Below the pieces are notes generated by a model. The model was not told where the DNA came from. It was given only the letters and a program-made list of their open reading frames with translations, and made no database searches. Positions 10,081 through 31,310 of a stretch of DNA of 64,000 nt are shown here, piece after piece (the first letter of the stretch is position 1; every line of letters starts with the position of its first letter). Position numbers and translations under genes: made by a program. The stretch is from Enchytraeus crypticus (taxonomy: Eukaryota > Annelida > Clitellata > Enchytraeida > Enchytraeidae). The DNA lies in assembly GCA_905160935.1 (NCBI GenBank), contig CAJHZI010000425.1:2619001-2683000 (forward strand). Reading direction: 5' to 3'.

Positions 10081-10190
10081 TGGCAGATGAAAGGCAGTTC
10101 AAAACTGTTGATATTACTAACTCGGAATTTCTATGTTGAATTATCGGTTTTTACGTCTGCATTATCGTTGTGTATGACTGATTTTGCCTC

Positions 10191-13100
10191 ATGATGCCAA
10201 TAACCAATAGTCAATATTTCGGTAGTGCAAGTAGAAATGGTATAGCGAATCAGCAGTTTAGTGAGTTGTCTATGTGTGACTTAATTCTGAACGAATCGGA
10301 TGCAGAGATAGGCAAAAGATCCCAGCTTGAAATTGACGCTGCGTTAGGGAAGCATACTTGCAGATTTGCTAAGCTAGGGAAGAGATATTTCAGCATGGAA
10401 TCGAGATACTGCAATAGGATATCACTATGCCGGTCTGTTAGTAACCCGTCTAATAATCATGTTATTCCTCTGAACTCTCATAGAGATGAAACGTTGGATA
10501 AAATTTCTGAGAATAATGATGTAATTCCATCTCGGTCTGTTAGTAACTCGTTTAATAATCATGTTATTTCTCTCAACTCTCATGAAGATGAAAAGTTGGA
10601 TAGAGTTTCTGAGAATAATGATGTACTTCCATCTCGGGAAAACGGTGCCGGAGACGACAGGTATGTGCTAGTGTTTATCTTATGAATGTAACTAATATCT
10701 GTTATTGGTAAACTGTTGTCTCCTTAATCAAATAATCATCATTAAGTCTTATATTCTTCTTCTTTGAGGTAAATTTTCAGTAAATTTTTAAATATTAATT
10801 TATTGCTTTTATATTAAGTATGGTTGCCAAATCCGGTAACAAATCTGGAGGGATTTGGATTTGCCAGAACCGATTTGCAAAAGTGCCCATTTTCTTTCAT
10901 TATATGATTTTTTGTGGACTTCTTTAAATCCTTTCCCATTAAATAACGTAGTGGGTAGTAGTGGCACGTGCAAACTAGAATGTTTCTTAAAGTTAAACCA
11001 GTTGATAGTATCATATAAAGGCTTCAATTATTGTTTTTATTTTTATTAACAACGAAAACTTATATAGCTGACTAGCAGTGTCATGGCCGAAAAGTCGGTC
11101 TTTGAGACTACCTTACAGAAAGAGTTCAATAATAATAATCTAAACAAAATTTACATTTTAATTTAACTTTATATCTAAAAATGCCTACCCATGATTTAAA
11201 GTTCCACTTTAAATCATATCAATCATATAATCATCTAGCAATACTGATACATGATTTAAAGTTCCACTTTAAATCATATCAATCATATAATCATCTAGCA
11301 ATACTTCGTCCTGTTTTTACATACTATACTTAAAAAATAAACATACATATATGTATATTGTAATTCAATGTTTTCATACAATGCACAAGACATTACCACA
11401 CAGAGAGCGCCTGTGGTTTATATTAGTGTCATTGTTACACAGTCATTGTTAAACGGCATCTGAACGTGATCAGAAGGCTATGAATATCAGCTACTCTGAC
11501 AGCTAGTTAATCCCATAGATCTGTATTAGTCATTGGAGGTTTTGGTAGACAAAGTAAAACAGTCGAAGCTGCTGACTTTGGTTTGAGGTCTTTGTTAAAT
11601 GGTCCAGCTGTATTAGTTAGTAGGATTTGGTCAGACTTGGCATATATACTTCACTGGTCAGAGCTGGCTCCAAGCTAATCAAAACTTCAACTGCTCTGTT
11701 AGTGTTTAGTTAGGATTTTGATTTTGGGTAGCCAAAACTATTTTTTTATAAATCAGTTTCCACTTTTGTAGTCTTTAGCTTTTTTATTTATTTATGTAGA
11801 TAAAATAGCAATGATATATTAAAGTAGAATAGGATTATCACAAGGAGATTAAGCTCTGTGAGGTAATACAGTCAGTAGCAGCAGCTAAGAATAATAAATT
11901 CAATTAATACTATACTTGTGTGCATTAATACTATATACAATTAATACTATACATTGTGTGCATACATTGTTGTTTCTGGGACACTGAAAAATATACCAAC
12001 TGTTAATTGCACATGTTGTAAGAGGCGACAAAACTGAGGAAGACAACTGGAAACCATTTCATAAGTCATATTTTCCAAGATAGAGGCTACTTAAGGTATG
12101 GTCAAAGTATAAACTTTGTGATGAGAGTAACTTGTTGATCTATGGAGTGCTCTCTATGGATCGTGAAAGCAGACTCAGAGTAAGAATATGTATTTTGAAC
12201 CTGCCATTTGGCAGAACACTAGAGAGAGAGAGAGAGAGAGAGAAAGAGATAGCGAGAGAGGGCTACGGAATACTTTGAAACTTATGGTGACGTACAACTT
12301 CTGCCCATTTCAGTAAACATATATTTTTAGAATAGAAATGCTGTACTATTTCTGTAAAAGGATAATAATGCAGCGTTAAGATTATATCTCTGCACTTTAT
12401 ATTTCTCCTCTGATCTTCTAAAATCGCTTTTAACAGCAATTTCATTCCAATTGAGCCAGGGAATATTTGAAAGCACACCAAAGTGACAAGTGAGGACTCT
12501 AGTTGATGCTTGTGTGCTACAAAACTGTATTTGTTCTATATTTGTACTATATTCGTACTATATTTGTACTATATTTATATTGTACTATATTTGTTAACCT
12601 CAGCTTCAAATGCTTTATTGTTGGTTAATGACGTATAAGACGTTTTTGTTGTGATATGTTATGTGATGTGTTATGATAAGTGGTATGATATGATGTGATA
12701 TGTTGTAATGCGATGTGTTGTGATGTTATGTGTTATGATGTGATGTTATTAGGTGATGTGTTTTGGTGTGATATGATATATGTTATGTTTTGAAGTGATA
12801 CCTTGTAATGTGATATGTCGTGATGTGTTGTGATGTGAAGTTTATGATGTTATGTTATAACGTTATGTGTTATGGTGTGATGAGTTTTGATGTGTTATAT
12901 TTTATTATGATATATTATAATGTGATGTTCCATATTGAACTGTGAAATATTTGATATGCTTTTGCTTATTATGTGATGCGGTTTATTATGTGTTATGTGA
13001 AGTGTTATTATATGAAGTGTTAATATGTGAAGTGCTAATATGTGAAACGTAGAGCAGCAGCTGTCACATCGACGTGACATCATAATTCGAATTGTTGGAA

Positions 13101-16100
13101 AATGTGACTTATTTCTTGTATAAATACTTGTGCACCCTACTATGTAATTGCTTTGTAATTGTTATTTATTTAAAGCGTTTAAACTTGGCCCTTAGCTTTG
13201 TCTAGGAGTTACATGTATGTGATAGATTTCGTGTAGATAAGCAATTTGCACTTCTCAGCCTCTTTAGTTTTGTTTGATTTTAATTGTTAATTACAATAAG
13301 GTAAATGGTTTAGCTCTTGGTGAAAGTTGTCAAACAGACAACATTCACTCTTACATCCTTCTTGAAATCATTAATTACTGCAGTTTATAGTAAGAACTTT
13401 AGACTAAGTACCCATACAGTACAGATCTGCTTAGAAACTTTCAGCTATACACTAGTATTTGCATGTACATGTATGTATACATTCAAGTGGTGCCAAATGA
13501 TTGATTTTGTTGTCTGCAGCCTCTTAAAAAATCCTTCATAACTGTAAGTTCTAAGGAGTTATCTCATTGTGTGCATAATGTAGTATAGGGTGTCCAGATA
13601 GGTCGTGAACGATTTTGAATGCAAAAAATTATATGTTATGCACAATACAATGTGGAAAGTTTGATACTGGCAGATAGGCTGTTCAATTGTAAATAACAGG
13701 GAAAATACTGTAGGTTTGTAACTTACGTTTCAAAGTGTTGACGTCATTTGCCGTGACGTCATCAAAATGTGCGTAAACAGAAAACTGCCGCAACAGTGCA
13801 GTAAATAAACGGCGTATCACTGATTAGGCAATGGCAACATTAAACGAAGCGCAAATTAGAGCACAAGCTATTACACTATTGGAAGAAAAGTATAGTTATG
13901 GCGTTATAGCAAAAAAACTAGGTCGTAGTAAAGCGTGGATTAGCAAGTGGGCCAACCGCTACAAGCAGAATCCAAACGAAACGCTGCAGAGTCGTTATCA
14001 AGGCGGTCGAAAGTCTGTGCTGACTGCTGCCGCTCAAAAACTGATTAGGCAGTCTAAATATGTGCGTGGACAGAGTCTGCGAAAGTTAGCACGTCGATTG
14101 AAAGACAAACGCTTTGCTGGATGCAAAGAGACAATAAGACAGTATATGCGAACGACGCTGAAATGGAAATGCTTTAAACGACAAAAGGTCCCAAAGTTAA
14201 GTAGTGCTTATAAAGTCCGCCGAGTCAACTTTGCGAAGAAGTTTAAAGATATTGACTGGTCGCGTGTCATGTTCACTGATGAATCACCTTTCAAACTTTA
14301 CTACGTACCTAACAATAAGAACGATGTAGTATGGGGATCACAAGAAACTTCTGTTCCGTGCGCGCCACAGGTGAAGTTCAGCCCGTCAGTTCTGGTGTGG
14401 GGTGGTATTACAGCTCGCGGATTAACAAAACTTCATATCATCCCAAATAAAACTTCAGTTAATTCGACTTATTACATCAATGAGATACTGGAGAAAGAGG
14501 TCAAACCAGCATTCCAGCGAACAGTTGTATGTACGAATTTAACAGCTACAAAGCTGTTTCGTAATAACGGCGAAGGATTGTTTCAACAAGACGGTGCACG
14601 TGCACACACATCAAGAGCGTCAGTCGAGTGGTTGAACACAAACATTAATGGATATATCTCACCAGAGGACTGGCCACCTAATTCTCCGGATTTGTCACCG
14701 ATAGAAAATGTTTGGAGTATTATGGCGGCAACGGTTTATGCCGATCCTGAACCGCAGACATTGAACAGCTTGAAACGCCGGATTCGAAAGGCGTGGAAAT
14801 CGATACCTCTGAAAACTCTGACAAATCTAATTGGCTCGATGCATGATCGACTTGACGCTGTACTGAAGAATAAAGGAGACATTATTAAATACTAAATGAC
14901 AATTTTTATAAATTTGTTACTAGTGGATTAAAAATGGCAGTCATTCAAAATCGTTCACGATCTATCTGGACACCCTATATATTTTTCATAAACATTTCTA
15001 CGCAAAGCTGCATATATCTGTCAGCATACAATGGCATATTTACTGCAGGGTCTAGGGTCTGAGAGTTGTGGGAGGGTTCAAGGGGAGAGGGGTGGAGCAT
15101 ATTCTAATAGGTGAATTGGATGATAGATTTCCTTCCTCCCCCCATATACAATTCGAGTGAGGAAACAATTCGAGTTAGGAAACTAACGTTAACCTTAGCT
15201 CCTTTTTATATGAGGACATTTGCCATGTCTAATGAAGTTAAATTGTTCTTATATAATTTTTGTCAGTGGAATTTTATCAGCCAAAAGTGAAATAATATTT
15301 GAATTTACCAATAAGTAGTATTTATTACATTGAGAAGAAATAATCTGTATATGAAAAGTAAAACAAAATCAAATTTTTCTCAACTTAATCTTGAACAATT
15401 TCACGTATTTATTCGAAATAGTTCATGCATTTCTTTTGAGGTAAAAATTTGAGTTTGCTAATTTTTTCCTCCTCGAAATAGTTTTTCCTCCCCGAAATTG
15501 TTATCAAAATGTAATTTTACCGTTTAGTCTCGCTTGAGAAGTGTTTTCAATTGGCTGCCATATAAGCATCTTTAAAAGTACATGAATATGATAATAGTCG
15601 TCTTTTGCATAGGCCTTGGAACATCATACTCTATATTAATAGAAGAAACGGCGATAATAAATTTTACCGTTATTTAATTAGATTAAATAGATTATAATAT
15701 CTCCATATGTTATTATAATGTTATTTTTTGATCGTATGCCTACACACATAACAACGGATGCATGGTGTTTACAAAGCAAGTCCTGTTTATGAATATACAT
15801 GTACTTTGGACCTGCCACTTAACAGAACATTAGGAAGAGAATATTATAATAATACTATAATTTAATATATGTTTCCTCTTACTAGTACTAGGAAACGGAA
15901 ATTTTATACTATTATGAGTGTGCTTGTTAGCTCCTGTATATTTGAGTGTACTATGTGAATGCGGAACCAGGGGATTATAGTAGGTGCTTTAACAGTTTAT
16001 TCTGCGTCAAGGAAGTAAACGATGGGCTTGTGGTATTAGTAATGATATTATTTCGATCATTCTCTTTCAATGGATTGGCCTTTACTCCCACAGGCTAGGC

Positions 16101-19100
16101 GTCGTCAAATATTATAATAATATACTGTATAACTGTGTGTTTAGCAGTATATAGTGATTAATTTCCTTCTGGTAAGGATTTGATATTACCATTGTTATTA
16201 TTAGTATGTTCTCGTTTTGTATCCGGGACACTGAAGAATATACCAACCATAACCGCGCGCGTCGTACGAGGCGACTAAGCAAAATCTGTACATGACACGA
16301 CCTCAGAAGCCTTATTTTTCAATCAATAAACTATATAAGCTGATAACTACCTCTTCTGTAAGACGTAAACTGGAAGATATTTAAGGGTCTACTCTTTTTT
16401 TCTTGTCCTTATTAAGAAATTAGTATGGAGGTTTTTAATGTTACAATGAAACTCCACAACTTGGCTTGTTCTTAACAATCCGTTGGGAAAAAGAACCATA
16501 CGATGATATGGTCCTTTTTTCTCGTCAATTTTCGCGTGAGTTTGTTTAAATCTCATCTAGAACTACATCTGAATTTCTATGTTTATTTTACAAGTATACA
16601 TTTAAATTTATAATTCTATATCTATTTTATAAAGTCTATATTTAATTTTTATTTGTTTTTTTTAAATACGTACTAAGTTCAATCAATGAAAATAAATATG
16701 GCATGTTGTGTGAGCAGGTTTCTAAATGGTCTATGCAGAACAGCAACAACCTCACTGCCAGCCCCTGGTACGACAACCTGGTGCAACGCTACTTTCCCAA
16801 CCATGTAAGTTCTACTTTTTTATTTAGCGTATGCATTAATCCAGATAGTTGCTTTACTTGTAAGGCGACTTAGTTTAAACAGTCCACCCGGCAGGCAGGT
16901 TAGAGGGCACTCATCAACGATATATTTCATGTTTTGTGTTTTAAGTTCTACGAATGCTCTCATTGTTTTAACTGTCACTCAGTTCAGTGGAAGCTCTATG
17001 TTTGTAGCTGATAATTTGAAAATTAGGACTACCAAAAATTGCAGATGTTTTTGAAAGCCGACTAAAGCAGACGATGATCAACGCAATATAAGACCTTATC
17101 AGAAGCTGCATTTTTCGTATTGAAAATTTAGTTTTTGTGCATTAAAGGCGCGGTTTGTGACAATTCTGTACACAAGTAAGTGCCGCCGGAGCTCATACTA
17201 GTGTAATTATAAACTCTTCTGCTTTGTCATTTCATAGGAGAGGAAACTATCTGTCCTATCATGTACAATTATACGTAATTTACATGTGAATACCTGAACT
17301 GTCTACGCCAAGCAAATGAAAGAACTACGATGTGTCTAGTGCAGCCATTCATCAGCTTCATCAACATCACCAAAATTGCACTAATGCGAAATGAAAAGAA
17401 TTCAATTTAGAATCTATACTTATACAATATTAGCCTCTTACCGACAACAGTTTGTTATGTCCTCAAGGGTCGCACTGAGTTTTTTTACTTTTTTCTAAGA
17501 ATTTTGTTAAAAATCCTGCTGTTGCCCTACAGTCAAAGCAGCTCGTGTTACAATGCAGCCTTGTTATTTATCGTGCAAGAAATCTTGATCAGGTAATTTA
17601 ATTTAGGCATCTTACGTAGACCTGTAGGCTACCGGTACAATATATTGATTCTTTTATACGTTACTATGATCATCTAGTGCGTTAACGTCAAGGTCAGAAG
17701 TACCTCGTTTCTTTTTAATACGATTCGTTCACCTCAAACTACGGTTGACTGAAGAGGAAATTGAGGAAGGCACCGGAAAGATATCTCATTTCCTAACTTA
17801 TGTGAGGCTTCATGTTTCGTTATTGATGCGAAACTGATTAGCGTTTTAGTGTTTATTGATAATTTCAGTTCAGTTATACTCATTGCTGTGCTTGACTGTG
17901 AAATCTTTTAGCGGTATGAGAAATAGGAAATATCGAATTTATATTAGCTTGAATACATTAAAAATTTTAGTTAACAAATATAAGCCATATTTTGATTGCT
18001 AACACTTATCATCATACCACCAAGCTACTTGACCTTCACTGTCCATTCAGCTCTACTGTGGCATTTAGCATAGTGCTGCGCTTTAAATATACTTATTGTT
18101 ACTATCATGCTTGCATTGAGTGCACATTTAGCTGTGGAAATATATGTTGAATATATAAACCTATTTAAACAGCTATGCCTTGACGTGATGTCATTTATTT
18201 ACAACGTTGTTAATTGTGCAGACACATTCCAGATCCTTCCATACAACAGCTCGTGTGGAGCGAGTCGCCTCGCAATGTTCTACTGGTGGAGAGGTTAGAA
18301 GATTGCGAAGAGGTCAACAATCACGTGACCTGCAGCGACTGCTGCCGGGCTAGCAACAGCAACAACAGCAACGTTAGAACAGATATGAACCACAGGAAAT
18401 GCTCGAGTCCATTGGAACGGCTTCAGGATTTCATTGTCTGGCTAATTGAGGTATGAGCGTGGGGATTGTTCTCTTGATATTCTAGGCATTTGTGTTATTC
18501 TTTTATGAGATTACCGGTATTGTCCAAGTAATCGATATATAGTTTTTGAATGAATGATTTTTGAAACGACAATGACTACTACTATCTTTGAAGTAACAAT
18601 AGCGTACGTACTAATTTATATATCTAATTTCCTGTGTTGTGCTCGGGTGTGGTTGGACCACTGCAGAATAAGGCAACCGCAAAACAATCTGCTGCATTTA
18701 CGTAAGAGGCGACTAAGGCAGGAGCTGAGGATGGAACTTGGGGACCCGCCTCACCATGAAATATTTCCCCCTAGGATTAAATGGTAATTAATCCATCTAA
18801 ACGAGGAAGGCAACGGGAAGCCATACCTTTCCCGAGCTATGGGCTACATAAGGTATGGATAAGACATAGACTTTGTGAAGGGATTAACTTGTTGATCTAA
18901 AAAATGCTCTTATGGAGCGAGAAAGCAGACTTTGAGTATGAATATGTACTTTGAATCTGCCACTTGGCAGTGTATTGAAGAGAGAGAGAGAGATATCTAA
19001 TTATGTTTTGCTCTTTAAAGGGACTTTAATTTCATTAGTTCTCAGTGCCTGTCTATTGTTTTTACAACCTGATCGATTGGCTGACTGTCGTAGTCGGCTG

Positions 19101-22100
19101 CGTATCAGTCATTAACTGATAATCGGCTTGATTAATTTATCTGTATGAAAACCACAGAGCACGCAATACTATTGTCTCCTACTTCTATTTCTTGTTTGCA
19201 GTAGATTAAGGTTATGTATTAGGGCCTATGTTTGTAATAATTGTGCTGTTTGTTGTTGTAGCGTATTACATTCATTAAGCTGTATTATTCAGTCATCAAG
19301 TTATGACTGGTTGGTTGCTGTAGTGTAGTTTCAGTGTCATAGCTAAATGATTAGCTTTTAAGTCATGTAATAACAACCAGCATTCGCGATATTCTTATTA
19401 CTTTAGTGTGTGAGTCTTGAAAATATATACGACTTCCTGGCTGGAGCCAGTGGCGATGACGGTAAGGTATTCGAACGCGGATCAATAGGTGCGGGGTTCA
19501 AATCCTGGGCTCGCCCGTCACTGACATCGCTTTCGAGTGAGGAAACTGACGTTAACATTAGCTTTACCAGCTTTTTTTTAGCTTTTTCCTGATGTCGTGG
19601 GTTCGATTACCGATCGAACTGATCAGAGAGTAAAATGTCAGACATTCATTGTACTGGTAATATTCCTTGTATTAACATTCATTGTCCTGCTCTAGTAGCC
19701 TATAATAGCTTGTGGCAGTAGCCTATAATAGCTCGTGGTAGTAGCCTATAATAGCGTGCGGTAGTAGCCTATAATAGCCTGTGGTAGTAGCCTATGATAG
19801 CCTGCTGTAGTAGCCTATGATAGCCTGCTGTAGTAGCCTATGATAGCCTGCTGTAGTAGCCTATGTTAGCCTGCTGTAGTAGCCTATAATAGCCTGTGGT
19901 AGTAGCTTATGATAGCCTGCTGTAGTAGCCTATAATAGCCTGCTGTAGTAGCCTATGATAGCTTGCTGTAGCAGCCTATGATACCGCACGCAGTCTCCAT
20001 ATAGATGTACAGTGATAGAAGTTATTTTATATAGTAGATAATTGTAAATGAACCTTGAAATAGAAAGAAGTAAAGCCTTGGTTATATGTGACACAGCAGT
20101 GTTCAATGATGTGTTAGGTGTGATTCAGTCGTTGTTGTTTTATTAGAGTGATTGTTGTCCGCCATACTTGAAGCATGTTTTATACTGACAGTTAATTCTG
20201 CGTAAAAGACATCAAGTCACCGTTCACGTGACGACGCTACATCTGATAGTTATTGGTTTCAAAACAATGCATTGAACATAGTGATAATTGCAAGACAAAT
20301 TATAAAAATGTTCCTTAAATTGACACTTATATTTGCATTTACAAGCTGATGATTGCGTACGGCTGCAAAGCATTTGACCATTTCCTATCTTCTAATAGCA
20401 AAATAACATCTTGAAAACTATTATTTTGTGCATATAAAATCAACCTGCTAGGATTGACAATGCCAAACCACATTTGTTTATCCACAAACTGCGTCCGACC
20501 TTCACCTTCTAGTGTCTGTTTACTTACTTCATACTGTCTACATCGTTCAAACTTGACAATGAATCGTCACACTTTTACAACGAATTGTTTACTCAGACCA
20601 AACTATGTAATTTTATAAAACTGCTAATCTTGATCACTCTAATAATCTTTCCATTGTACCAATGTATGCCTAATCTGATATATCTTGTTTTAATGTTAAT
20701 GAATTTAAGAAGAGTTATGTATATTTAAATTTATTTAAATTTGGTCTTTATTAGGATACAAGGAAAGATGATGATGATGATGATGATTTAAATTTAGTCC
20801 TTAACAACATAGTTGAACAGTTTGCCATAGTGATTTTTTCGTCATTTCGCCTCTTAGGGGTTTCGAGAGTCTCCAGGACTTAGGAGACTCCTGGGGGAGT
20901 ATTTTATTTTTGGTGAGAGAGAAATTTTTTTCCTGTACAAAATTTTTATGTTGAGGTATAAAAGTGCGACAAGACTGGAGTTACATATCTTCACGACTTT
21001 CTGAACCAGTAAAATTAAGTTACGAAGAAATCAGTGCGGTCATGTTTTCTGAATCTGACATCTGATCTATGCCTGAGATATAAAATAATTGGCCGGAGCC
21101 AGTGGCGATGTCGGTAAGATACTTGATCGCGGATCAGTATGTGCGGAATTCAAATCCTGGGCTCGCCCGTCACTGACATTGCTTTCGAGAGAGGAAACTG
21201 ACGTTAACATTACCTTTTTTAAGCATTACTTCTTATTTCTTGATCGGGAAAATATTGATCGCCGAATGGTTTAGAAAGAAGATGGTATGAAAGGTTGGGA
21301 ACCACGCCACTCATGACTGGACCGTACAGTCATTATGAGATAGAAGTCTTCTAATAAGCTTAACATACATCGATCGGTTACTCTTCTTGAACTGTGATTG
21401 GTCGACTGCGTGTTTGAAAATAGGGACAATTCGATGATATAAGGCAGATCTAGTATGTTTATTGTCAAGCTCAGACGCTTAAGGCTTCTTCACGAGATCA
21501 TTCAGTCTGAGTCCAGAGTTTAATTTATTGGAAAATGCTATTTGGGTAGAAATGTACTGCTATGATTGGCTTTGTTTTAATTCTAGCTGTTTTTGTATTT
21601 TCCTTACCCATTTTCTAGTCTGTTCTATTATCCGGCTATTATTGTATCATTTCTCTTGTTAGGTCTACCGCTTTTTTTGTGTTCAATATTTTACTCTTTG
21701 GGTCAAACTTTACCTTTTTCTAATTAGGCTATAAATTATTAATTTCATTTTTATCTCTCTCTCTAGTTTCAACAGTCTAGTTCTTTACTTCTGTGTTCGA
21801 TACATCGTTTGGTGAGGATTGATTCGTCTGTCGTAACTGGTGTAATTTTTACTTAGGTTCATACACAATGTCTGTGCGTGCGGAGATGTATAGGAACTAG
21901 AGTACTAGAGTTTCATTAGAACGCATTTAGTGCAACTGATGACGTCAAACAGCTTAAAAATATATGAAAATTCTAATTTCTAAAGTCTGGATAGCATCGG
22001 TATTTCATTTTATATGCAACCGTATTATGAAGCCGAAGCCAAGTTTAACGTCAGTTTCGTGCCTGTCAATGACTGAGAGTGCACTGCATTTGAACTCTGC

Positions 22101-25100
22101 ATCTACCGATTCGAACTTGTCAACAAGCCACCGGCTCAGCCAGTTAAAATCCTGTATCAGTCTCTAGTTTTTATTGGCATTCCTCGTCTCTATTCTTACA
22201 TAGCCTTTTCTGTCATATAATTTATAAACTTTAAGTTTAAAAAAGCGAAGTTTATTAAAAAGTAGAGAAATGGCTGTTTATCTTGCGAGCATGTCATAGT
22301 TGTTTTGAAATATGTCTAAAAGAAACGTTCAATTATAATAAGTGGCTTGGTGCTTCATTATTCACTTCAAAATCTCATACAGTTTATGTTATAATTTATA
22401 TAATATGTTATACTATCATTATCAAATCTGTACGTTATAAATGTTTTCAAACTCTTTGTACTTCTCTGCAGGTCTTAAGGTTAGCATGGTTGGAACCCTA
22501 TAGATCTATTTATAGTAATTTATCTATAGTTATTTCCTAGTAGGCTTGCCGTTGTTGGAAGACATACCTGTAGTTTATGATGTATCACGAGTCAGCCTTA
22601 TAGCTTCTCTTAATAGTAATGTAGTTAGCACCTCTGTCTCTTTCTCTCTCTGTCGCTCTATATCTCTCTCCCTTCCTCTATCCCTCCTTTCTCTCCGTCT
22701 CTCTCACTCTCCTCACCTCTCTCACACACTCTCAGATATACGGTCATCCGAGGTACTTATTCTTAGTCAAAGTTGCTCCAATGCACGTTTGCAATAAAGC
22801 CATTTTTTCCCAACCAAAATATGCTTTTCCATTGCTTTTCTTAGCTCTTGCTTGGTCGCCTCTGGCAACGAAAGCAGTGTAAATTATTCTCTTTTGCTGT
22901 GGTCCTGATAAAGCGCTAACAGTGGTTTGTAAACGACAATTTTAAGTAATAATTTCTTATTCGTATCATCGCAGTTGTAAAGCATCGAGCTGGGAACTGA
23001 GTCATCGGCGTATTTTGTATTCAAGTTTTAGCGTAGATCCTGTTGTAGATTATATGCAAGTTTTATTTATTTATTATCGTACAGTTTTTATAGCCTCATT
23101 TTAATTTCCTAAGCTGTTGTTTTGCAGCTGGGCTATGTAGTAGTATAATTGTTGTTATTAATCCTCCAGCTTTTGTACCAAAACCCAGACTATATAGATT
23201 CTATATATAATTATCATAAATAACAGTTTCTATTTATTGCAAAAGTATCAATTCCTGTGGTCCTATCTTAAGCTACTTTGTTAGTCAGATATAAAGACTC
23301 GCATGAACCATTTCAACTATGTATTAAATGATATTTATTCATTTTATTTTTAGGTTAAACAGGTCACAATTTACGTGGAGAAGGAAAATCTGGAAAGGTT
23401 TAAATTATCATCGTTGCCTCAGTTCAAGAGAGTAGAATCCGATATTGTGGCCTACAACCCAGCTGGTAATAATTGAAATCTTATATTGTATAATGTAATG
23501 CTGCATTAATTTAAATCTTTAAATAATTAATATATTATTCCTAAGAGGTAGCGTTTTATGAAGGTATATTATACTTCATGAATTTTGATAATATATTTGT
23601 AATTTTTTGTTGCTTTCTTACTTGGTAGAAAAGTTTGTCATTAGTCATAATGGATCATATTTCTGAGATTAATATTTAAATAAGAAAGAGTTTAGACTAT
23701 AGTCCTCTCCTCTATTTAATATTTTATCTGTGTAGTAATTTGTAGTTCTGCAGGAGGATACTATTTTCTGATAATGGTGCGAATTCGGAGTGGTTTCTAG
23801 TACAGTAAAAGTTATCAGAAGAAGTTACACTGTGTAGGCGCACACACCTTTAGATTGATTGAACATATATTGTGTCTTTGCACTGCCAAAGGCTAAGAAT
23901 AACGTCAGTTTCCTCACTCGAAAGCGATTTCAGTGGCGGGCGAGACCAGGAATTGAACCCCACACATACTAATCCGCAATACCATATCCACATAACATAT
24001 CCTGATGTATTATACTACTTTATCTAGGTTACATCAAGCGGTTCTATTCTTTAAACTTGCAAACTAGCCACAAGGTGATTCCTGCACATAGACTGTATGA
24101 CTAAGCAGAGCTGTGTGTTTAGAATATGACGTTGGATTGATTTGTTGCTCAGATATTGATCAGGAGCAGGAGATAGATCGGATAGTTTCTGTTGATTGAT
24201 TTGTTGTTCAGATATTGGTCAGGAGCATGAGATAGATCTGATAGTTTGTGTGGGATGTGATAGTGCACTCGTCGACGTCTCCATGCTGTTTCAGGTGAGA
24301 TTCTTCGATCCAACTTTTCTATTGGAAATAAGAGATATATGGTGTATTTTCTAGCTCATTTGTTGATTTACGCACACAGCACACTGTAGTTACTAATTCA
24401 TTGCTGAGTTTTTTCCGTTAGATTTTATTTTACTCTTTTATTTTCATTTATTACCACGTACAATTGCACATAGGCACTTAATACCTACAGAAAATGAAAG
24501 AAAAATTCACAAATATGTAGTTGTAATGGCAACTACAGGCTACATACATAGCAATTACTTATTCCATTATTAGAACTATAAAATCTTTGCTTTAAAAAGT
24601 TGGAAGTTAAATTTAATAAATTAGGTAAAATAAAATATGCTATTTTAGTATAAAAACTAATATAGTGTGAGCAATATGATGTCCAAACAGTTGCTGCCAG
24701 TCTGCCAGGGAAGCAGGAGACCGTTGGTTCGATTTCAAGAAGCGCTATTTTATTTGTGACTGTGTCATTTTGATTAGAAAATTAATCTTTTGTAACCTTA
24801 CCTGGACGTAACTGCTGACGTTATTTAGATTATGTTGTAGTATAACTATGTACTTTAGATAATGCTGCAGTATAACTATATACTTTAGATTATGCCGTGT
24901 TATAATTACTTACTTTTTCTTTACATTTATTTTAAACCAAAATTTATAAATTTAATATATTTAAATATATTAGAGAAAAGCTTAAATAGCATAAGCGAAA
25001 ACAGTTTAGCGATATTTTTTGTTTACAGTTTGACTTGTAGCCTACTGTAATTTAAACTTCAGATCAGTGCTACGATTTGCTAATTCGATGATAAGCTCTG

Positions 25101-28100
25101 TCACTAGTGTGTTGCAGCAATTTTCCCCAGGTTAGGTTTGAAATTGGCTCTTGCTAACCTGTCTCAGAAACTAGATGCTGTAGGTTAGATTGTTTGCCAT
25201 ACCTACTTTAGCGAAAGTCTTGAAAATATTGAATGCAGATATCTGTGTCGTGCTATTTTTCATTGCTTCTTTTGTTTTATATTACAGAAAAGTGTTCCGC
25301 CTGTGCTGGCATTTCGTCTCGAGACCAGCGAGTACCTGGCTCCCCTAAAGTTCTCTCACTTCAAGGAGGAGTTCACTCGTGCCGTCTCTTGTAAGTGTAG
25401 TCAACTCTTTTACTCCTTAAACTAGAAAAAATCTCGTTTTAATCTAGGCTTAAGGTCATTGGATTAACTCTGATGTGAGATACTAGGTTTATCTTATATT
25501 ATTTATTCTACTTACTGTTAATTGTAAGAAGAGTACTTTTGGCGCGTGTAGATATTAGGCAGTTTACTGTTTGTACGAAGAAGAGCGGTTTCAGCAGAAT
25601 GGAGTTTTCTATAGGCAGATTGATAATGAGAAAGAGAAGGGAAAGAATCAAGATGAGTGCATAAAGGGGTATAAATTACCTTTTCAAGAAGTTTAGAGAT
25701 GAAGTTAAGATTGGAAATAGGACGGTAACTGGAAAGATCATTTTTTGGTAGAAAAGGCTTTTTTAGCAAAGGAGATACAACTGCTTGTTTGAAGGAGGTC
25801 GGGAAGATACCTTCTGAGAGTGAGAGGTTTATTAAGTAAGTAATAGGAGCAACTAAAACATCAATACAGGATTTCAGTAATCGTGTAGGAATAACATCAA
25901 GGCAGCAAGAGGAGTCGGTAGAGCGAAGAATAAAATTGCATATTTCTTCCGGTTTAGCTGGTTCAAAACTAGAAAGTAGTGGTGGTTCAGGCATATTTGC
26001 AGAAATGGAGTTGTCGGTGTTAATGGAGTTGACACCGACAACTCCATTTCTGTAATGTGTCATTCATGTCTAATGTGTCATTCATATCTAAGTGCACTGC
26101 CTACTGGCAGGTCCATGATATATAACGCCTCCACTCTTCTCTGTCTTCCGCCTTCCTCTTCATTTCCACATTTGAGTAGGTTTTTAAATCCTCTAACATA
26201 CTTAATCTCGGCCAAACATACATAATCTCGGTCATTCATGCATTGTGCTTTAAGTTTTTGTTATCCGGTTATTACTATTGGACCTAAAATTATTGATATT
26301 GTACTTGTTGCTTTTCGATATAAACGTTACAAACATTCTTTATGTTCTCGAATGGTCTACAGGTGAGAGCGTGAACGTAGCCCTGAGGACGCGTTTAGTC
26401 TGCTGCATTAAGAGAAGCTCTAGCAGTGAAGCAGACTCGTCAGCAGCTTGTGAACAACATCTGGTAAGCTGTCGTCTGTTGTCTAGTGTTCTCTTCTTTA
26501 AGTTCATGTTTCTCTTTATCTTATCTTTTGTTCGAAAGAGAAAATATAATAGAAACCCGTTCTGTTAGTGTGATCTATATTGTTCTACTTGAAGGGGCAA
26601 AATGAATTTATGATAATTGAGATGAAAGTTAATACTTTATTAATTAATTTTAATTAAACTGTTTGATTTCAGATATTAAATGAAGTTAGCATTGAAAGAG
26701 GTTCAAGGGCTCATATATGTCAGCTTGACCTACATATCGAAAACAAAATTGTGACTACTGTTCAAGCAGATGGTAAGTTTTACTAAGTTAATTAAATTTT
26801 TTGGCCTATCACTTTATCATTTGTAAAAAAATATCTTGTTCTGGGTAAAAAGTTAAATATAATATATTCGTTTATTTTCGTTCAATCTGACAACCGCAGA
26901 AAGTTACAGCACAGAAATTCCAACAGACATAGCATAACAAATTACAGATATAGCATAAACAGTTAATAGGCTAGATATAAGAGAGATAAAACTAAAAATT
27001 GTTCTCGCTAACATTTGCCACATGAATATTACAACATTACATAAATCAATGGCTTATACTATTCATAATTACCATATAGGGCGTACTGTACTAGGAGTAA
27101 AGAAGAATCTTTTAGTATTCATTAAATTAACTAGCATCATCTAGAATCATACGAGTAATGAAGTTTTTATCGCTCAGACTGCTTCGTTTTATGGGAAGGG
27201 AAAAGCATCTCTTAGCAGTATTTCTTCGGGTTGGGTAATTATGATTGTTTTGTGGAGGTAACAAATGCGCCAGTAAATGTGCAGGGTTGTTACAGATTGC
27301 CTTGAAAAGATTATTGTCAGCAGTTACATAGATCCTCAAAATTAGATTCTTTACTGTAGAATCCAGCTCTCCTTGCCTTCTTTAAAAAGGTTTCAAGACG
27401 GGTTCTCTCTTCAGCATTTGTAAAGCCCCACCAAAACTGGGAGGCATATAGAAGCTTAGAGAGTGTGGAGGCTTGAAAGACTCTCTGAAGAAGATCATTT
27501 GCCAAACCTTTACTACGTAAAGAATAGAGCGCAAAAATGTTGCTCGAATACAAACTAATGATGTTTGTGATGTGAGCAGAAAAAGAAAAGTTATCAGATA
27601 CTATGACACCTAAGCATTTGATGTTAGAAACCCGCTCAATTCCTTCAAGGTGTGGGACATCTCTTATCTGCCTTTTTTGCTTGAGTAATTGGAAGAGAAT
27701 TTCTTTTATTTTATTTCGATTTAATAGTAGATTGTTAGAGCGGGACCAGTTTTCGATATGAACTAATTCCTCTTCCGTTGAGTGAAGGTTAGAGGCAGGC
27801 ACAATCAGGTATGTGTCATCGGCATATTTGAACAAAGAGTTTGTAGGCTGTAGGGTTTTTAAGTCTGATGTAACGATGACAAATGCAGTTGGTCCAAGGG
27901 CTGATCCTTGGACTATGCTGGCATTGATTGCTGCTGATGACGATGTTTGACCATCAAAGATAGTGGTGTGTGAACGGGCCGAGAGGAAGCTGGCAATCCA
28001 CCCATTAATGTTGCTAGGCACATCTAGGGTCCACAGTTTATCAATCATTTGTGAGTGTCTGACTGTATCAAACGCCTTGCTGAAGTCTAACGCTATTACT

Positions 28101-30534
28101 CTGACGAAGGTCTCAGTTTCGAGCATAGACGAAAGTTTGTGAAAGAAGGCAATGAGAGCAGCAGTAGTGGATCCTGTAGGGCGAAATGCATACTGATTGG
28201 TGAAATCAAGGCTTGGGGGTGAAGATAATAGTGCTGAGTATATATACTGTGACGTGATAATACGTTCAGTGATGCGTGAAAGTATCGAGGTGATGGAAAT
28301 AGGGCGATAGTCAGACATGACTCTGGGGCAAGAAACCTTGGGTATCGGTTTAATTATTGAGGATTTCCACTGAATAGGTACATAGGAATTGCGGATAGAC
28401 ATATTGATTAAGTTAGCAAGAGGAGCTGCAAAGACTGGAGCAGATAGTCTCAAGAACCATGAAGGAAGGTCATCGGGACCAGTGGCTGTTGGTTTTAATT
28501 TGTCCAGAATGTGGAAAATTGTAAATTCTGAAACGGGACTATTAGGTATATTATTCACTTGGTTTATGATTGGTTCATTATACTCACTGTCGGTTGAGAC
28601 TAGTGCATAATAGCTATTAAGCGTTTCAGCATTTATGCTCGGATTGGGAGAAGATCGTTGATATAGCTTCTTACCTGTGACCTTCTTCACTGCTGCCCAT
28701 AGATCATGGGAGTTAGTGGCAGAGTTTAGATTTGTTAACTGATAGGAGTTACATTTCGTTATGAGTTTTCCTATTTTTATCGAGAGAGCATTAGCAATAT
28801 TTAACTTTCCTTTGTGCATTAAGGCATTTCTCTTTCTAAGGTGTGACTTAATTTCGGGTGTAATATAGTCTGGCTCATTGGATGTTAGTGTAACAGTTTT
28901 AGTCGGGAAAAACTATTGAGGAGAGATATTGCCTTTGAATAGAAATGATCAAATGAATTCTGCACATTGGTGATTGAAGGATTAAAGAATTCTGAGGATG
29001 GGATGGAAGAAATATGCGACAGATACTTAGCATTATTAGATGGTGTTTTATGACGAAAGGTATGTCTGCCTAGTTTTAGTAGAACAGACTTTGACATCCC
29101 CATTGTAAGCTACTATGCCAGAATGATCACTAAGCACTGTAGATTTAATTATTTTTATCTTACTATATAAGATATCGGAAACAAAAATATGATCCAGAAT
29201 ATTGTTTCTACGTGTAGGAGTTGATACGAGGTCTTGAAGACCTGTTAGCTCGGATATACTGCTGGCTTTTATGCCATTAAAATCGCCTGCTAGTTAAAAT
29301 GTCTTAGATGTTAAAATTGAGCTTCATTTTATGCTCTTTGATATGCTAAATACGCTCTCGATATTTAACGTATTCTTTTATATATTTATGCATAAGAGGC
29401 AGTAAATTAAGCCAACTTGATAAACTTTAAATTGGCTACATAATTTACATCAAACTTCATGAAGCTGTTAATGAGAAAAAGTAGGTCTTGAATTGATTTC
29501 CCATTGCCTTCCTTAGTTTCTAATTAGTGTCTTTCACAGCGAGCACTATATGGCCGGGATTGCTCTGAATAGGACAAGACTCAAGTTTAAATAATATTAA
29601 ATTATGTGCATGTTCTGTTATATTACATTGTGTACATATTAAACTATATTTAGTAAATTATGTACGCCCTTAAACAGCCTAGAGTCACAACTAAATGCCA
29701 TTTTGATTTGTCGTTTCTTTTAATTATGATAATGTCACTGAGTCAAATATGAGCGAAATATTTTCCTTTTCCTGGGAATCATTAATAGCAATCTCAAAAC
29801 AAATTCATTAGAAATTTAACTTTTCTGCATTTTGACTGCAGGGTTATTAGCCTGGGAGAATCAAAAACCCTTAAAATCGGTGGGTTTCCTTGTTCAGATG
29901 CAAAGTTTTGATTGATTGATTGTTTGACTATTTCGGTTTAATTTTATTACCTGACAATTCATCATCATCTTCCCTTTAATTCCAGTTTAACTAGGGTCGT
30001 GATACGAATAGACTGATCCATTCGTTTAAGTTTTTGTAGCAATTTCTGGAGCCTAGGCGCTCAACAACCGAATGACCTTTCTGACGGTGGCTTGGATCTA
30101 GTTTTTATTACCTGACAATTACAGATTATAAATATTAGTATTGATTGATTTGCATTGACAGGTCTGTTAATATCGACACCGACAGGAAGTACTGCATACG
30201 CTGCCGCTACAGGCTCGTCCATGATACATCCGAGCATTCCATCCATCCTAGTTACTCCAATCTGTCCTCACTCTCTCTCCTTCCGGCCCATCGTTGTTCC
30301 TGCCTCCGTAGAAATTAAGGTCAGTGCAGCTTATTAATGCTAATAGTAGTTATAATAATAGTAATAACAGTTTAACGTCCAAGAATAATGTCAGGGACCT
30401 CCCCACATCATACATCACATCCCTCAGCAAACATCACTTAATATTGTTAAGTATCATCACTTAACAATATAAAGTGATGTTAATATTGTCACTTAATATT
30501 GTTAATTCTTTCTATCTCTCTCTCTCTCTCACTC

Positions 30535-30565
<31 letters not shown>

Positions 30566-31310
30566 CAATGTACTATCTAACGGCAGGTCCTTGGCATATA
30601 ACTCTTTTTACCAATTCTATCTTCGGCTGATCTAAGTAGCGTTTGAACGTATATTTACAAATATCGTTTTTTTGTTGTATTTTATAAAGCATCTTTTTAT
30701 GCTTTTCTTGTATAGTTATATTATAAACTATCTTTTTAGAAGCTAATTTGGACGTGACATTTAATACTGCCAGGTTAATATTCCATACGGTTCTGGTCCG
30801 TCTGCACTTAGAACCGATAGCCACCGATAGCCTTCTGTCTTTTAGGCTAGCAATAAATCATATATCAGCTATCACTTATGAGTCATCGTTTATCAGCTCA
30901 ATGTAAAGTTATGTAATGATATCATAATGCTAATCATTTAGTTTTGCTAACAAGTTACTTGGCTCCTTAATTTAGATATTTCCTTGAACGCTCGTCTTGT
31001 GACTTGTGACAACTTAAAATTAAATTAAAAGTTATTTATTGTTTATAATTTAGGTAATTATTTTTATAAATTTTTTGGTTTAAAATTTTAGGTCATGCTG
31101 ACTGCAAGAACGCGCGGCAGTGTTTGGGTTTCGTTTGATGGAAGGCATAGAACAGAGCTGCGGCAAGGGGACGCCTTACTAATCAAATCTTCACGTTTTC
31201 CAGTGCCTTCAATCTGTCGAAACAACCAGATCAATGACTGGTTCGACACACTTGCCGATAGTCTACAGTGGAACGTTAGAAAAGTTCAGAAGGGTCTTCT
31301 CGACAAATAA
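10191..31310 (+). CDS. NAD kinase family protein, ten exons, non-canonical active site
   Basis: Coding exons: 10191-10660, 16718-16804, 18222-18450, 23354-23465, 24212-24294, 25288-25390, 26363-26463, 26673-26772, 30162-30319 and 31092-31310. All junctions are GT-AG and every phase matches, giving 553 residues. An in-frame TGA precedes the first ATG. From residue about 185 on, the order of blocks follows animal cytosolic NAD kinases (NADK), which phosphorylate NAD to NADP: HIPDP, a YVEK strand, VPPV.AF, NE (398-399), TPTGSTAY (434-441), [10 protein letters not shown] (466-475) and WVSFDG. The ATP-site signature GGDGT is G-C-D-S-A (314-318): the Asp is kept, but one Gly, the second Gly and the Thr are changed. 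The conserved Gly-rich loop after VPPV.AF (HLGSLGFL in NADK) reads RLETSEYL (337-344), and GDG reads ADG (427-429). The N-terminal about 157 residues are lineage-specific. It is either a divergent kinase or a catalytically impaired paralogue. Family assignment is firm; activity is an inference. Confidence 0.88.
10431..10634 (+). repeat. Tandem 34-codon repeat inside NAD kinase-like exon 1
   Basis: Two adjacent 102-bp units (10,431-10,532 and 10,533-10,634) encode residues 81-114 and 115-148. Each begins RSVSN and runs through NNHVI.LNSH to a SENNDV.PS end. The frame is kept. The copies differ at several residues, so the duplication is not brand new. The segment is polar, Ser/Asn-rich and probably disordered. 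Confidence 0.8.
11190..11305. repeat. Perfect 60-bp tandem duplication with internal palindrome
   Basis: Two copies with an exact 60-bp period. The shared block starts 'catgatttaaagttccac' and ends 'catctagcaatact'. Each unit contains a hairpin, ATGATTTAAAGT-TCC-ACTTTAAATCAT, with 12-bp arms and a 3-nt loop. The identity suggests a recent duplication. Confidence 0.85.
11985..12245. repeat. Dispersed repeat D with (GA)n end
   Basis: A copy of a family also at about 16,215-16,300 (partial), 18,640-18,990, 39,735-40,005 and 52,780-53,035. Landmarks are 'gacactgaaaaatatacc', 'taagaggcgac', 'gaaccacctcagaagcc'-like text, 'cttgttgatctatgg', and a 3' 'gaacctgccacttggcag' followed by (GA)n. It is probably the 3' part of a retroelement. 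Confidence 0.55.
12640..13045. repeat. TGATGTGTTATG minisatellite
   Basis: About 400 bp of degenerate tandem units built from 'gtgatgtgttat' and 'gatatgatgtg' variants. It is non-coding. Confidence 0.75.
13588..14975 (+). mobile_element. Complete Tc1/mariner (DD37E) transposon
   Basis: A 1,388-bp element with about 34-bp terminal inverted repeats that differ at one base. The left end is GGGTGTCCAGATAGGTCGTG; the right end inverted is the same with A for the second G of AGGTC. It is flanked by TA on both sides (13,586-13,587 and 14,976-14,977). It contains one uninterrupted transposase gene. It lies in the sense orientation in intron 1 of the NAD kinase-like gene. Near-identical ends and an unbroken frame suggest a young, possibly functional copy. 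Confidence 0.93.
13831..14895 (+). CDS. Tc1/mariner transposase, DD37E type
   Basis: Uninterrupted 354-residue protein that would catalyse cut-and-paste transposition at TA sites. Residues about 1-120 form a paired-type helix-turn-helix DNA-binding region (Pro-free first HTH with [13 protein letters not shown]). The DDE catalytic core follows: D150 (in FTDES), D254 (in [10 protein letters not shown]) and E292 (in [11 protein letters not shown]). There are 37 residues between the second Asp and the Glu, which makes it DD37E rather than the DD34E of classic Tc1. The length is usual for the family. ATG 13,831 is the first in frame after the left terminal repeat. No frameshift, stop or missing catalytic residue is seen. 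Whether the copy is active cannot be read from sequence. Confidence 0.93.
   Translation: MATLNEAQIRAQAITLLEEKYSYGVIAKKLGRSKAWISKWANRYKQNPNETLQSRYQGGRKSVLTAAAQKLIRQSKYVRGQSLRKLARRLKDKRFAGCKETIRQYMRTTLKWKCFKRQKVPKLSSAYKVRRVNFAKKFKDIDWSRVMFTDESPFKLYYVPNNKNDVVWGSQETSVPCAPQVKFSPSVLVWGGITARGLTKLHIIPNKTSVNSTYYINEILEKEVKPAFQRTVVCTNLTATKLFRNNGEGLFQQDGARAHTSRASVEWLNTNINGYISPEDWPPNSPDLSPIENVWSIMAATVYADPEPQTLNSLKRRIRKAWKSIPLKTLTNLIGSMHDRLDAVLKNKGDIIKY
14976..16717 (+). other. Intron 1 of the NAD kinase-like gene, right part
   Basis: Non-coding. A SINE-A tail fragment lies at about 15,150-15,205 and partial copies of dispersed repeat D at about 15,790-15,840 and 16,215-16,400. No further exon is needed to keep the reading frame. 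Confidence 0.5.
16718..16804 (+). CDS. NAD kinase-like gene, exon 2 (87 nt)
   Basis: Small exon bounded by gtgagcag and GTAAGT. It enters and leaves in phase 2, so including or skipping it keeps the frame. In the phase-consistent frame it ends FPT and joins HIPDP of exon 3, matching the stretch before HIQDP in animal NADKs. Another frame of the same 87 nt is also open, but its phases do not fit the flanking exons. Confidence 0.65.
16805..18221 (+). other. Intron 2 of the NAD kinase-like gene
   Basis: Non-coding AT-rich intron with no recognised repeat and no extra exon signal. Confidence 0.6.
19438..19580 (+). repeat. SINE-A copy (tRNA-derived)
   Basis: A good full-length copy: head 'ctggagccagtggcgatg', B-box 'ggggttcaaatcctgg', 'cgtcactgacatcgctttcg', then 'gacgttaacattagctttac' and a T-rich end. 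Confidence 0.8.
19693..19985. repeat. 23-bp minisatellite
   Basis: About a dozen copies of a 23-bp unit, agtagcctataatagcctg plus tggt, with point differences between copies. It is non-coding and intronic. Confidence 0.85.
21091..21220 (+). repeat. SINE-A copy (tRNA-derived)
   Basis: Head 'ggccggagccagtggcgatg', A-box-like region, B-box 'aattcaaatcctgg' (one substitution), then the shared tail 'gacgttaacattacc' and Ts. Confidence 0.78.
23888..23981 (-). repeat. SINE-A fragment
   Basis: Reverse-strand partial copy in intron 4 of the NAD kinase-like gene. It keeps the tail ('aacgtcagtttcctcactcg' on plus) and the B box ('gaattgaacccc') but lacks the head. Confidence 0.65.
24137..24254 (+). 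repeat. 59-bp tandem duplication across an NAD kinase-like exon acceptor
   Basis: A 59-bp unit (24,137-24,195 and 24,196-24,254) carries the end of intron 4 (ttgatttgttg.tcag) and the first about 40 nt of exon 5. Two acceptor sites therefore exist, ending 24,152 and 24,211. Only the downstream one gives an open frame. The upstream one reads into an in-frame TGA after about 15 codons, at the duplication junction. Confidence 0.8.
24212..24294 (+). CDS. NAD kinase-like exon 5, carrying the altered ATP-site motif
   Basis: An 83-nt exon that completes an Asp codon, runs through [15 protein letters not shown] and ends SMLFQ at a GTGAGA donor. Its alignment to IDFIICLGGDGTLL..SSLFQ of animal NADK is unambiguous on flanking residues, so the GCDSA at the GGDGT position is real in this assembly. 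Confidence 0.85.
25518..26063 (-). pseudogene. LINE reverse transcriptase fragment
   Basis: An open frame of 181 residues similar to the front part of non-LTR reverse transcriptases: a [11 protein letters not shown]-type block, then LLKKP, then [21 protein letters not shown] and YQSAY. This is the order seen in CR1/L2/Jockey-type elements. It stops before the YADD catalytic box and has no endonuclease, so it is a dead fragment. Confidence 0.8.
26000..26052. repeat. Perfect 21-bp hairpin
   Basis: Arms 26,000-26,020 and 26,032-26,052 are exact reverse complements (core 'gaaatggagttgtcggtg') with an 11-nt loop. It overlaps the 5' edge of the LINE fragment. Confidence 0.85.
26085..26200 (-). repeat. 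Dispersed repeat E fragment (LINE 3' end)
   Basis: On plus it reads 'gcactgcctactggcaggtccatg' then 'gcctccactcttctctgtct'. On the minus strand it encodes the tail seen better at 57,905 (EDR.EWRRYIPWTC), which is typical of the C-terminus of a LINE ORF. Other copies: 51,990-52,250, 57,905-58,130 and a short piece at 30,560-30,610. Confidence 0.6.
27120..29300 (-). mobile_element. 5'-truncated LINE (CR1/Jockey-like), antisense in an intron
   Basis: Minus-strand retroelement keeping the end of the apurinic endonuclease (GDFN at about 29,297, then ILDHIFVSD and a SDHSG block near 29,140), the complete reverse transcriptase (27,317-28,819) and a C-terminal region (27,127-27,339, with HNYPTRRN). 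The 5' part is missing, as is usual after incomplete target-primed reverse transcription. A few frame breaks separate the pieces, so it is inactive. Confidence 0.85.
27317..28819 (-). pseudogene. Non-LTR reverse transcriptase, long open frame
   Basis: 500 codons with the standard blocks in order: [31 protein letters not shown], the A-box Asp in [26 protein letters not shown], and the catalytic [10 protein letters not shown]. These identify a polymerase of the CR1/L2/Jockey superclade. The frame is long and open but cut off from its endonuclease and its tail by frameshifts. Confidence 0.85.
30370..31091 (+). other. Intron 9 of the NAD kinase-like gene
   Basis: Non-coding. It contains a repeat F fragment (about 30,375-30,430), a patch of 'ttaatattgt' repeats, (CT)n followed by (TCTG)n (about 30,508-30,566) and a short piece of repeat E. 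Confidence 0.5.

Follow-up and report, generated by a model that had tools for sequence, protein, structure and literature searches.

How should a NAD kinase (NADK) relative be read when its N-domain has lost glycines from two motifs and its C-domain has been kept? The question is raised by a gene in a 64-kb stretch of the Enchytraeus crypticus genome (hereafter the window; C332:2619001-2683000), for which a sequence-only reading had proposed a NADK paralogue with an eroded ATP-site motif and an intact C-terminal domain. We reconstructed this pseudo-NADK candidate from the sequence as nine exons between positions 10191 and 31310 on the + strand, joined in phase across eight introns that are all GT-AG and compatible in phase. 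The spliced frame of 1575 nt, stop codon included, encodes a two-domain, NADK1-type protein of 524 aa with zero internal stops. The ten exons and 553 codons of the sequence-only reading were not reproduced, although its first and last base and its unbroken frame agree with our model. A decaying pseudogene recognisable by a broken frame or broken splice sites was rejected, given the absence of internal stops and the eight GT-AG introns of the nine-exon model.

Exon 1 (10191-10660, +) supplies the start codon and an N-terminal region for which no relative was recognised, and the N-domain begins in exon 2 (18222-18450, +), which also carries a 33-residue insertion compared with human NADK and with the canonical NADK1 of the same genome described below. 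Exon 3 (23354-23465, +) is followed by exon 4 (24212-24294, +), in which GCDSA (24253-24267) stands where GGDGT is expected, and by exon 5 (25288-25390, +; motif positions 25294 and 25315 on the + strand), in which ETSE stands where the GSLG (GxxG) loop is expected. After exon 6 (26363-26463, +), exon 7 (26673-26772, +) keeps both the NE motif and an Asp aligned to human D314, and ends in TTVQAD(G). Exon 8 (30162-30319, +) starts with the (G) of this ADG and carries TPTGSTAY (30176) and SLSFRP (30272), while exon 9 (31092-31310, +) encodes the rest of the C-domain and the C-terminal tail up to the stop codon at 31308-31310. In the protein these landmarks fall at residues 285-289 (GCDSA), 310-313 (ETSE), 369-370 (NE), 398-400 (ADG) and 405-412 (TPTGSTAY).

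The N-terminus is the least certain portion of the gene model. Exon 1 comprises 156 codons plus two bases and ends in a phase-2 donor compatible with exon 2. It lies in a stop-free run of 167 codons (10182-10685), a length matched on the + strand by none of 400 Markov sequences modelled on the 9.2 kb around exon 1, the longest run among them being 149 codons. The exon contains a 102-bp in-frame tandem repeat (10431-10637) whose copies differ mostly by replacements (dN 0.126 vs dS 0.048, over few sites). No counterpart of exon 1 was found in C367:150001-190000, on the contig that carries the canonical NADK1.

Several other elements occur in the window. Intron 1 holds a Tc1/mariner-type element (13584-14979, +; DDE_3 and HTH_23 matches) that lies outside the coding gene and looks young, with 38-bp inverted ends that are 97% complementary and an uninterrupted transposase-like frame of 355 codons. 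Open frames matching reverse transcriptase (RVT_1) lie in an intron of the NADK-like gene (25518-26063, -; below the Pfam cut-off), in intron 7 (27317-28912, -; probably LINE-type and outside the coding gene), and at 42336-43289 (-) and 47746-48513 (+). An open frame with a Bin3 domain (38425-39054, +; PF06859, 75 bits) probably represents one exon of a gene for an RNA methyltransferase, a Ser/Pro-rich frame of 373 codons (54961-56082, -) has no Pfam match at E 0.01, and short G+C-rich tandem repeats (3436-4314) leave several frames open on both strands.

The protein belongs to the NADK family by both of its domains. Against Pfam it scored 125 bits for NAD_kinase_C (PF20143; cut-off 23.7) and 31.9 bits for the NAD_kinase N-domain (PF01513; cut-off 25.5), both above threshold, and its NCBIfam matches all fell short of their cut-offs, which were drawn up for prokaryotic families. 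In phmmer it aligned with human NADK over both domains at E 1.4e-83, so the resemblance is not due to chance. GCDSA replaces GGDGT and RLETSEYL replaces HLGSLGFL, as the sequence-only reading had said, so that GGDG has become GCDS and neither glycine of the GxxG loop of NADK1-type and bacterial enzymes is left. In human numbering the lost glycines are G183C, G185S, G207E and G210E, and they belong to two loops of the N-domain that lie at the substrate cleft. By alignment, the Asp that acts in catalysis within GGDG has been retained (D287 in the window protein, D184 in human), as have N369/E370, D399 and TPTGSTAY, which comprise the NE/D motif and region II (DG...TPTGSTAY) and include the equivalents of human N284, E285, D314 and Y327. 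The phrase 'eroded ATP-site motif' therefore holds for the glycines of GGDG and GxxG and overstates one point, because the catalytic Asp has survived. The position of human Y295, inside the well-kept C-domain, is His in the window protein and also in the yeast NADH kinase POS5. The string GGDGT is absent from all six frames of the window, and neither low-stringency tblastn with the human core nor a regular expression for GGDGT found alternative exons with GGDGT or GSLGFL inside the gene.

As a baseline we tallied 60 bacterial NADKs, namely the best 30 of 65 C-domain matches from one phylum sample of 61 genomes and the best 30 of 59 from another of 60 genomes. Within this set GGDG was present in 60/60, as it is in human NADK, the canonical E. 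crypticus NADK1 and POS5, and each GxxG glycine was likewise present in 60/60, so that all four glycines lost from the window protein are invariant among these 60 sequences. The residue before DG in region II was far more variable (A 40, G 12, C 5, S 2, T 1); at the last residue of GGDGT, 56 sequences had T and four had A (GGDGA). Other NADKs thus share the ADG of the window protein or the A that ends GCDSA. The earlier description of the altered motifs as nearly invariant fits the four glycines and not the ADG, and the change from GDG to ADG, which had been counted as a lesion, was rejected as one, since ADG is the state of POS5 and the commonest one among the 60 bacterial sequences. A separate scan of contigs gave only two bacterial NADK relatives.

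We searched the whole genome (524,188,772 bases in 802 contigs) for other NADKs. The PF20143 search matched the window gene (two matches) and contig C367, and the PF01513 search matched only contig C380. C367 carries a canonical NADK1 that keeps GGDGT, HLGSLGFL and GDG; the traced part (C367:182196-224315) comprises nine exons from the FGPK exon onward, the exons upstream being left out of the trace, and reads IDLIICLGGDGTLLYASSLFQ, SVPPVMAFHLGSLGFLSPF, LNEVVVDRG, VVQGDG and STPTGSTAY. A paralogue with intact GGDGT, as the sequence-only reading would have it, is therefore present. C380 has GGDGT, a loop reading GINTDPL without GSLG, and GTGSTSW; it looks like the NADK2 type, an assignment to that clade made by sequence and not by a tree. 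It belongs to the same family and genome as the window gene and differs from it in these three motifs. Because the canonical NADK1 and the NADK2-type gene are both present, the window copy is probably not the sole source of NADP. When the window protein was compared with its own genome, 18 matches were obtained, nine on C332, four on C367 and five others, all weak (E >= 0.8). C127, C158, C201 and C473 each have an open frame of 2203-2213 codons that matched the query weakly and at the same level (E 3.7), a large frame that is repeated in the genome. A third NADK1-type copy or haplotig was not found by this search, in which only the best candidates were scored; a diverged one could be missed because, of the eight C367 exons equivalent to window exons 2-9, only four were picked up.

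The window gene and the C367 gene share their exon order and all eight intron phases (2,0,1,0,1,0,1,0), and exons 5, 7 and 8 are identical in length (103, 100 and 158 nt). Because of this agreement in phase and length we conclude, from gene structure, that the window copy arose as a DNA-level duplicate of NADK1 and not via a processed transcript; a processed pseudogene was rejected, the eight introns having been kept with the phases seen in C367. The C-domains of the two proteins are identical at 77/123 positions. Unlike the window gene, C367 has GGDGT, HLGSLGFL, VQGDG and the FGPK exon, of which no equivalent turned up in intron 1 of the window gene. Four-taxon trees with POS5 as outgroup accepted all three topologies (AU p 0.29, 0.37 and 0.71), and the best of them placed the window copy outside C367 plus human, a placement that a long branch alone can cause.

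The same assembly includes the mitochondrial genome as contig C802 (15,205 bp), in which we recognised twelve protein genes by eye, all on one strand and open under the invertebrate code, in what we take to be the earthworm gene order. Fragments of COX1 lie on C361, C424, C796, C373 and C166; four of the five contain an in-frame TAA or TAG, and they are probably nuclear mitochondrial copies. The GC content of the window is 35.6%. For the published E. crypticus genome a size of 525.2 Mb and a GC content of 35.41% are given, and its 15,205-bp mitochondrial genome has the gene order of Lumbricus (PMC8460440).

We then asked whether the window gene has been maintained as a coding gene. Over 331 codons shared with C367, LWL85 gave dN 0.53 and dS 2.17; neither NG86 nor YN00 returned a usable dS, and dS is accordingly read as saturated. 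In neutral simulations of substitutions without indels (1000 runs per point), a 524-codon frame stayed free of stops with a probability of 0.009 once 0.1 substitutions per site had accumulated and of 0 at 0.2; for the 387-codon C367 frame the two values were 0.029 and 0.001, respectively. Differences between the two genes were highest at third codon positions in both domains (first/second/third: 0.35/0.20/0.62 in the C-domain and 0.55/0.41/0.66 in the N-domain). With a frame open at saturated dS, the simulation result and the third-position excess, it is very probable that the gene has been kept under selection as a coding gene, a judgement that rests on one deep paralogue pair. The openness of the frame at this distance also upholds the earlier view that the copy is kept under selection and not decaying. 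A decaying or unexpressed copy that is open by chance would fit a fast-evolving N-domain and introns that hold transposon insertions, but it would have to have preserved 524 open codons, nine exons and eight GT-AG introns to the point of saturated dS, along with a C-domain whose Pfam score equals that of the canonical copy, and we consider it highly improbable.

A 59-bp tandem duplication (24135-24252, +) spans the acceptor of exon 4 and ends just before the GCDSA codons. As read from the sequence, the upstream copy (24135-24193) is intronic and provides a second AG acceptor, use of which would shift the frame; the doubled acceptor could give aberrant transcripts. The coding copy keeps the L and C of IDLIVC as in C367 where the intronic copy has R and S, a difference in the direction that continued constraint on the coding copy would produce, although two sites prove nothing, and two further replacement differences between the copies could not be polarised. 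A short duplication immediately upstream of GCDSA is also what might be expected if the motif exons had been misassembled or miscalled. Yet the repeat stops short of the GCDSA codons, and the three changes in GCDSA and the four in ETSE lie in separate exons, among 20 changes in the N-domain, with no frameshift, so that an error of this kind is barely credible.

The changes in the window protein are concentrated in the N-domain. Among residues identical in C367, human NADK and POS5, 20 of 43 were altered in the N-domain of the window protein compared to 5 of 41 in its C-domain (Fisher p 0.0007). In the control comparison, C367 was altered at 3 of 26 N-domain and 1 of 37 C-domain positions of the window/human/POS5 consensus. 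Consistent with this distribution, branch lengths on a fixed topology were 1.54 for the window protein vs 0.39 for C367 in the N-domain and 0.39 vs 0.23 in the C-domain, and Pfam scores were 31.9 vs 64.4 bits and 125 vs 124.5 bits, respectively. Over 329 positions aligned between the window protein, C367 and human, 75 were changed only in the window protein and 25 only in C367. Human cytosolic NADK (PDB 3PFN, 8KGC, 9CR3, 9CR4) aligns with the window protein over both domains, with 72/125 C-domain positions identical; it differs in GCDSA, ETSE, Y295H, the 33-residue insertion and an unrelated N-terminus, and in the N-domain it is identical to the window protein at 44/137 positions vs 73/137 for C367. 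Ten residues have been named at the human NADK tetramer interface (PMC12052686), and nine of these are kept in the window protein (human R290, Y327, A329, A330, M335, C349, L353, R356 and L425), the exception being D289, which is Glu. The intact C-terminal domain of the sequence-only reading thus stands: the oligomer-forming C-domain is conserved and the change is spread over the N-domain.

These patterns bear on whether the protein can still phosphorylate NAD. In NADKs the Asp of GGDG takes the proton off the 2'-hydroxyl, and an Asp of region II (Asp-189 in the Mycobacterium tuberculosis enzyme) is supplied to the active site by the adjacent subunit, an arrangement shown in bacterial and archaeal enzymes (PMC8553519). 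Judged by how far it lies from Thr-200 and Tyr-202, Asp-189 would correspond to human D314 and D399 of the window protein. In human NADK, C349S lowers activity and R356A, Y327A and D314H abolish it, Y295 is predicted to stack on nicotinamide, and residue 184 is printed as Asn where the sequence has Asp (PMC12052686). In the window protein, the side chains of GCDSA would intrude into the tight GGDG turn, and the N-domain would thereby lose its handling of phosphate and NAD, while in ETSE two acidic side chains would take the place of the glycines of the second loop and leave no useful phosphate transfer to NAD. We therefore judge from the motifs that NAD kinase activity is likely to be lost or strongly reduced. 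Residual activity is possible because D287, NE and TPTGSTAY are all kept, which speaks against a pseudo-NADK, and an enzyme need not be inactivated by losing only its GxxG glycines, since the NADK2-type protein of the same genome also lacks GSLG.

An ordinary active NAD kinase in which the changes are tolerated would accord with the kept catalytic Asp, with the occurrence of ADG and GGDGA in other NADKs and with an NADK2 that has GINTDPL in place of GSLGFL; POS5 itself shares ADG and TPTGSTAY with the window protein. POS5 keeps GGDGT and LGTLGFL, however, and the window protein has lost two glycines within GGDG that are conserved in every bacterial sequence tallied, has an N-domain branch about fourfold that of C367 and shares its genome with a canonical NADK1, all of which make this explanation improbable. 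Slightly better placed, but still quite unlikely, is a kinase with a different phosphoryl donor or acceptor, whose two substrate loops around the kept Asp would have been reshaped by GCDSA and ETSE. Such an enzyme would need D287, N369/E370, D399 and TPTGSTAY, all of which are present, and an N-domain that is still recognisable, as its 31.9 bits indicate. Against it, GGDG is intact in all the bacterial sequences, human, C367 and POS5, and the N-domain change is broad (20/43 shared positions), which looks more like relaxation than retuning.

A pseudoenzyme has been described as a protein without conserved catalytic motifs by sequence analysis (PMC10211241), and compared with its canonical paralogue the window protein has lost such a motif, with the catalytic Asp itself kept. 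Taken as a whole, the reading that we favour is that the gene is a selected pseudo-NADK whose role is mainly that of a subunit partner of the canonical NADK1, which we regard as plausible though short of probable. Its most likely role would be to serve in mixed NADK tetramers as a subunit without catalysis of its own. The kept C-domain would let it assemble with canonical NADK1 subunits, and its D399 would complete the active site of a canonical neighbour, which it could do because NADK sites take an Asp across subunits and D399 is kept. Mixed tetramers of this kind may tune NADP supply. For a dead subunit in a mixed assembly there is a precedent in trypanosomatid deoxyhypusine synthase, an enzyme of another pathway than NADK, whose activity rises 3000-fold when the active enzyme forms a heterotetramer with a dead paralogue (PMC3663545); there the pairing of dead and active paralogues is reported, whereas for NADK it is only proposed here. 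More tentatively, an animal lineage may have built a dedicated pseudo-NADK that enters the cytosolic NADK tetramer and so controls how NADP is made; it would give its neighbour the cross-subunit Asp and an interface, with its own sites dead. The replacement of Y295 by His and the exon-1 repeat, which differs mostly by replacements, count against the subunit-partner reading.

The pseudo-NADK could instead work on its own: a homotetramer would bind NAD(H), NADP(H) or some other ligand by way of the C-domain and would signal or scaffold, leaving the canonical enzyme untouched. The kept C-domain and interface residues would serve this role as well, and the novel N-terminal region and the 33-residue insertion offer possible partner sites, but Y295H and the two Glu of the GxxG loop may weaken dinucleotide binding, and we consider it unlikely.

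A 2019 phylogeny of eukaryotic NADKs describes NAD kinase as the one enzyme by which NAD(H) is phosphorylated to NADP(H), and ties duplications in the family to compartments (PMC6675116); the sections of that paper that were available contain no mention of a non-catalytic member. In the open-licence PubMed Central literature we recognised no report of an inactive or pseudo-NADK. Pseudoenzymes are a known kind, and what would be new, within that literature, is one in the NAD kinase family. If the subunit-partner reading is true, the E. crypticus gene could be the first pseudoenzyme described in this family, NADP supply would be tunable by a dead paralogue, and the window copy and its canonical counterpart would constitute a natural experiment that sets catalysis apart from assembly as roles of the two NADK domains.
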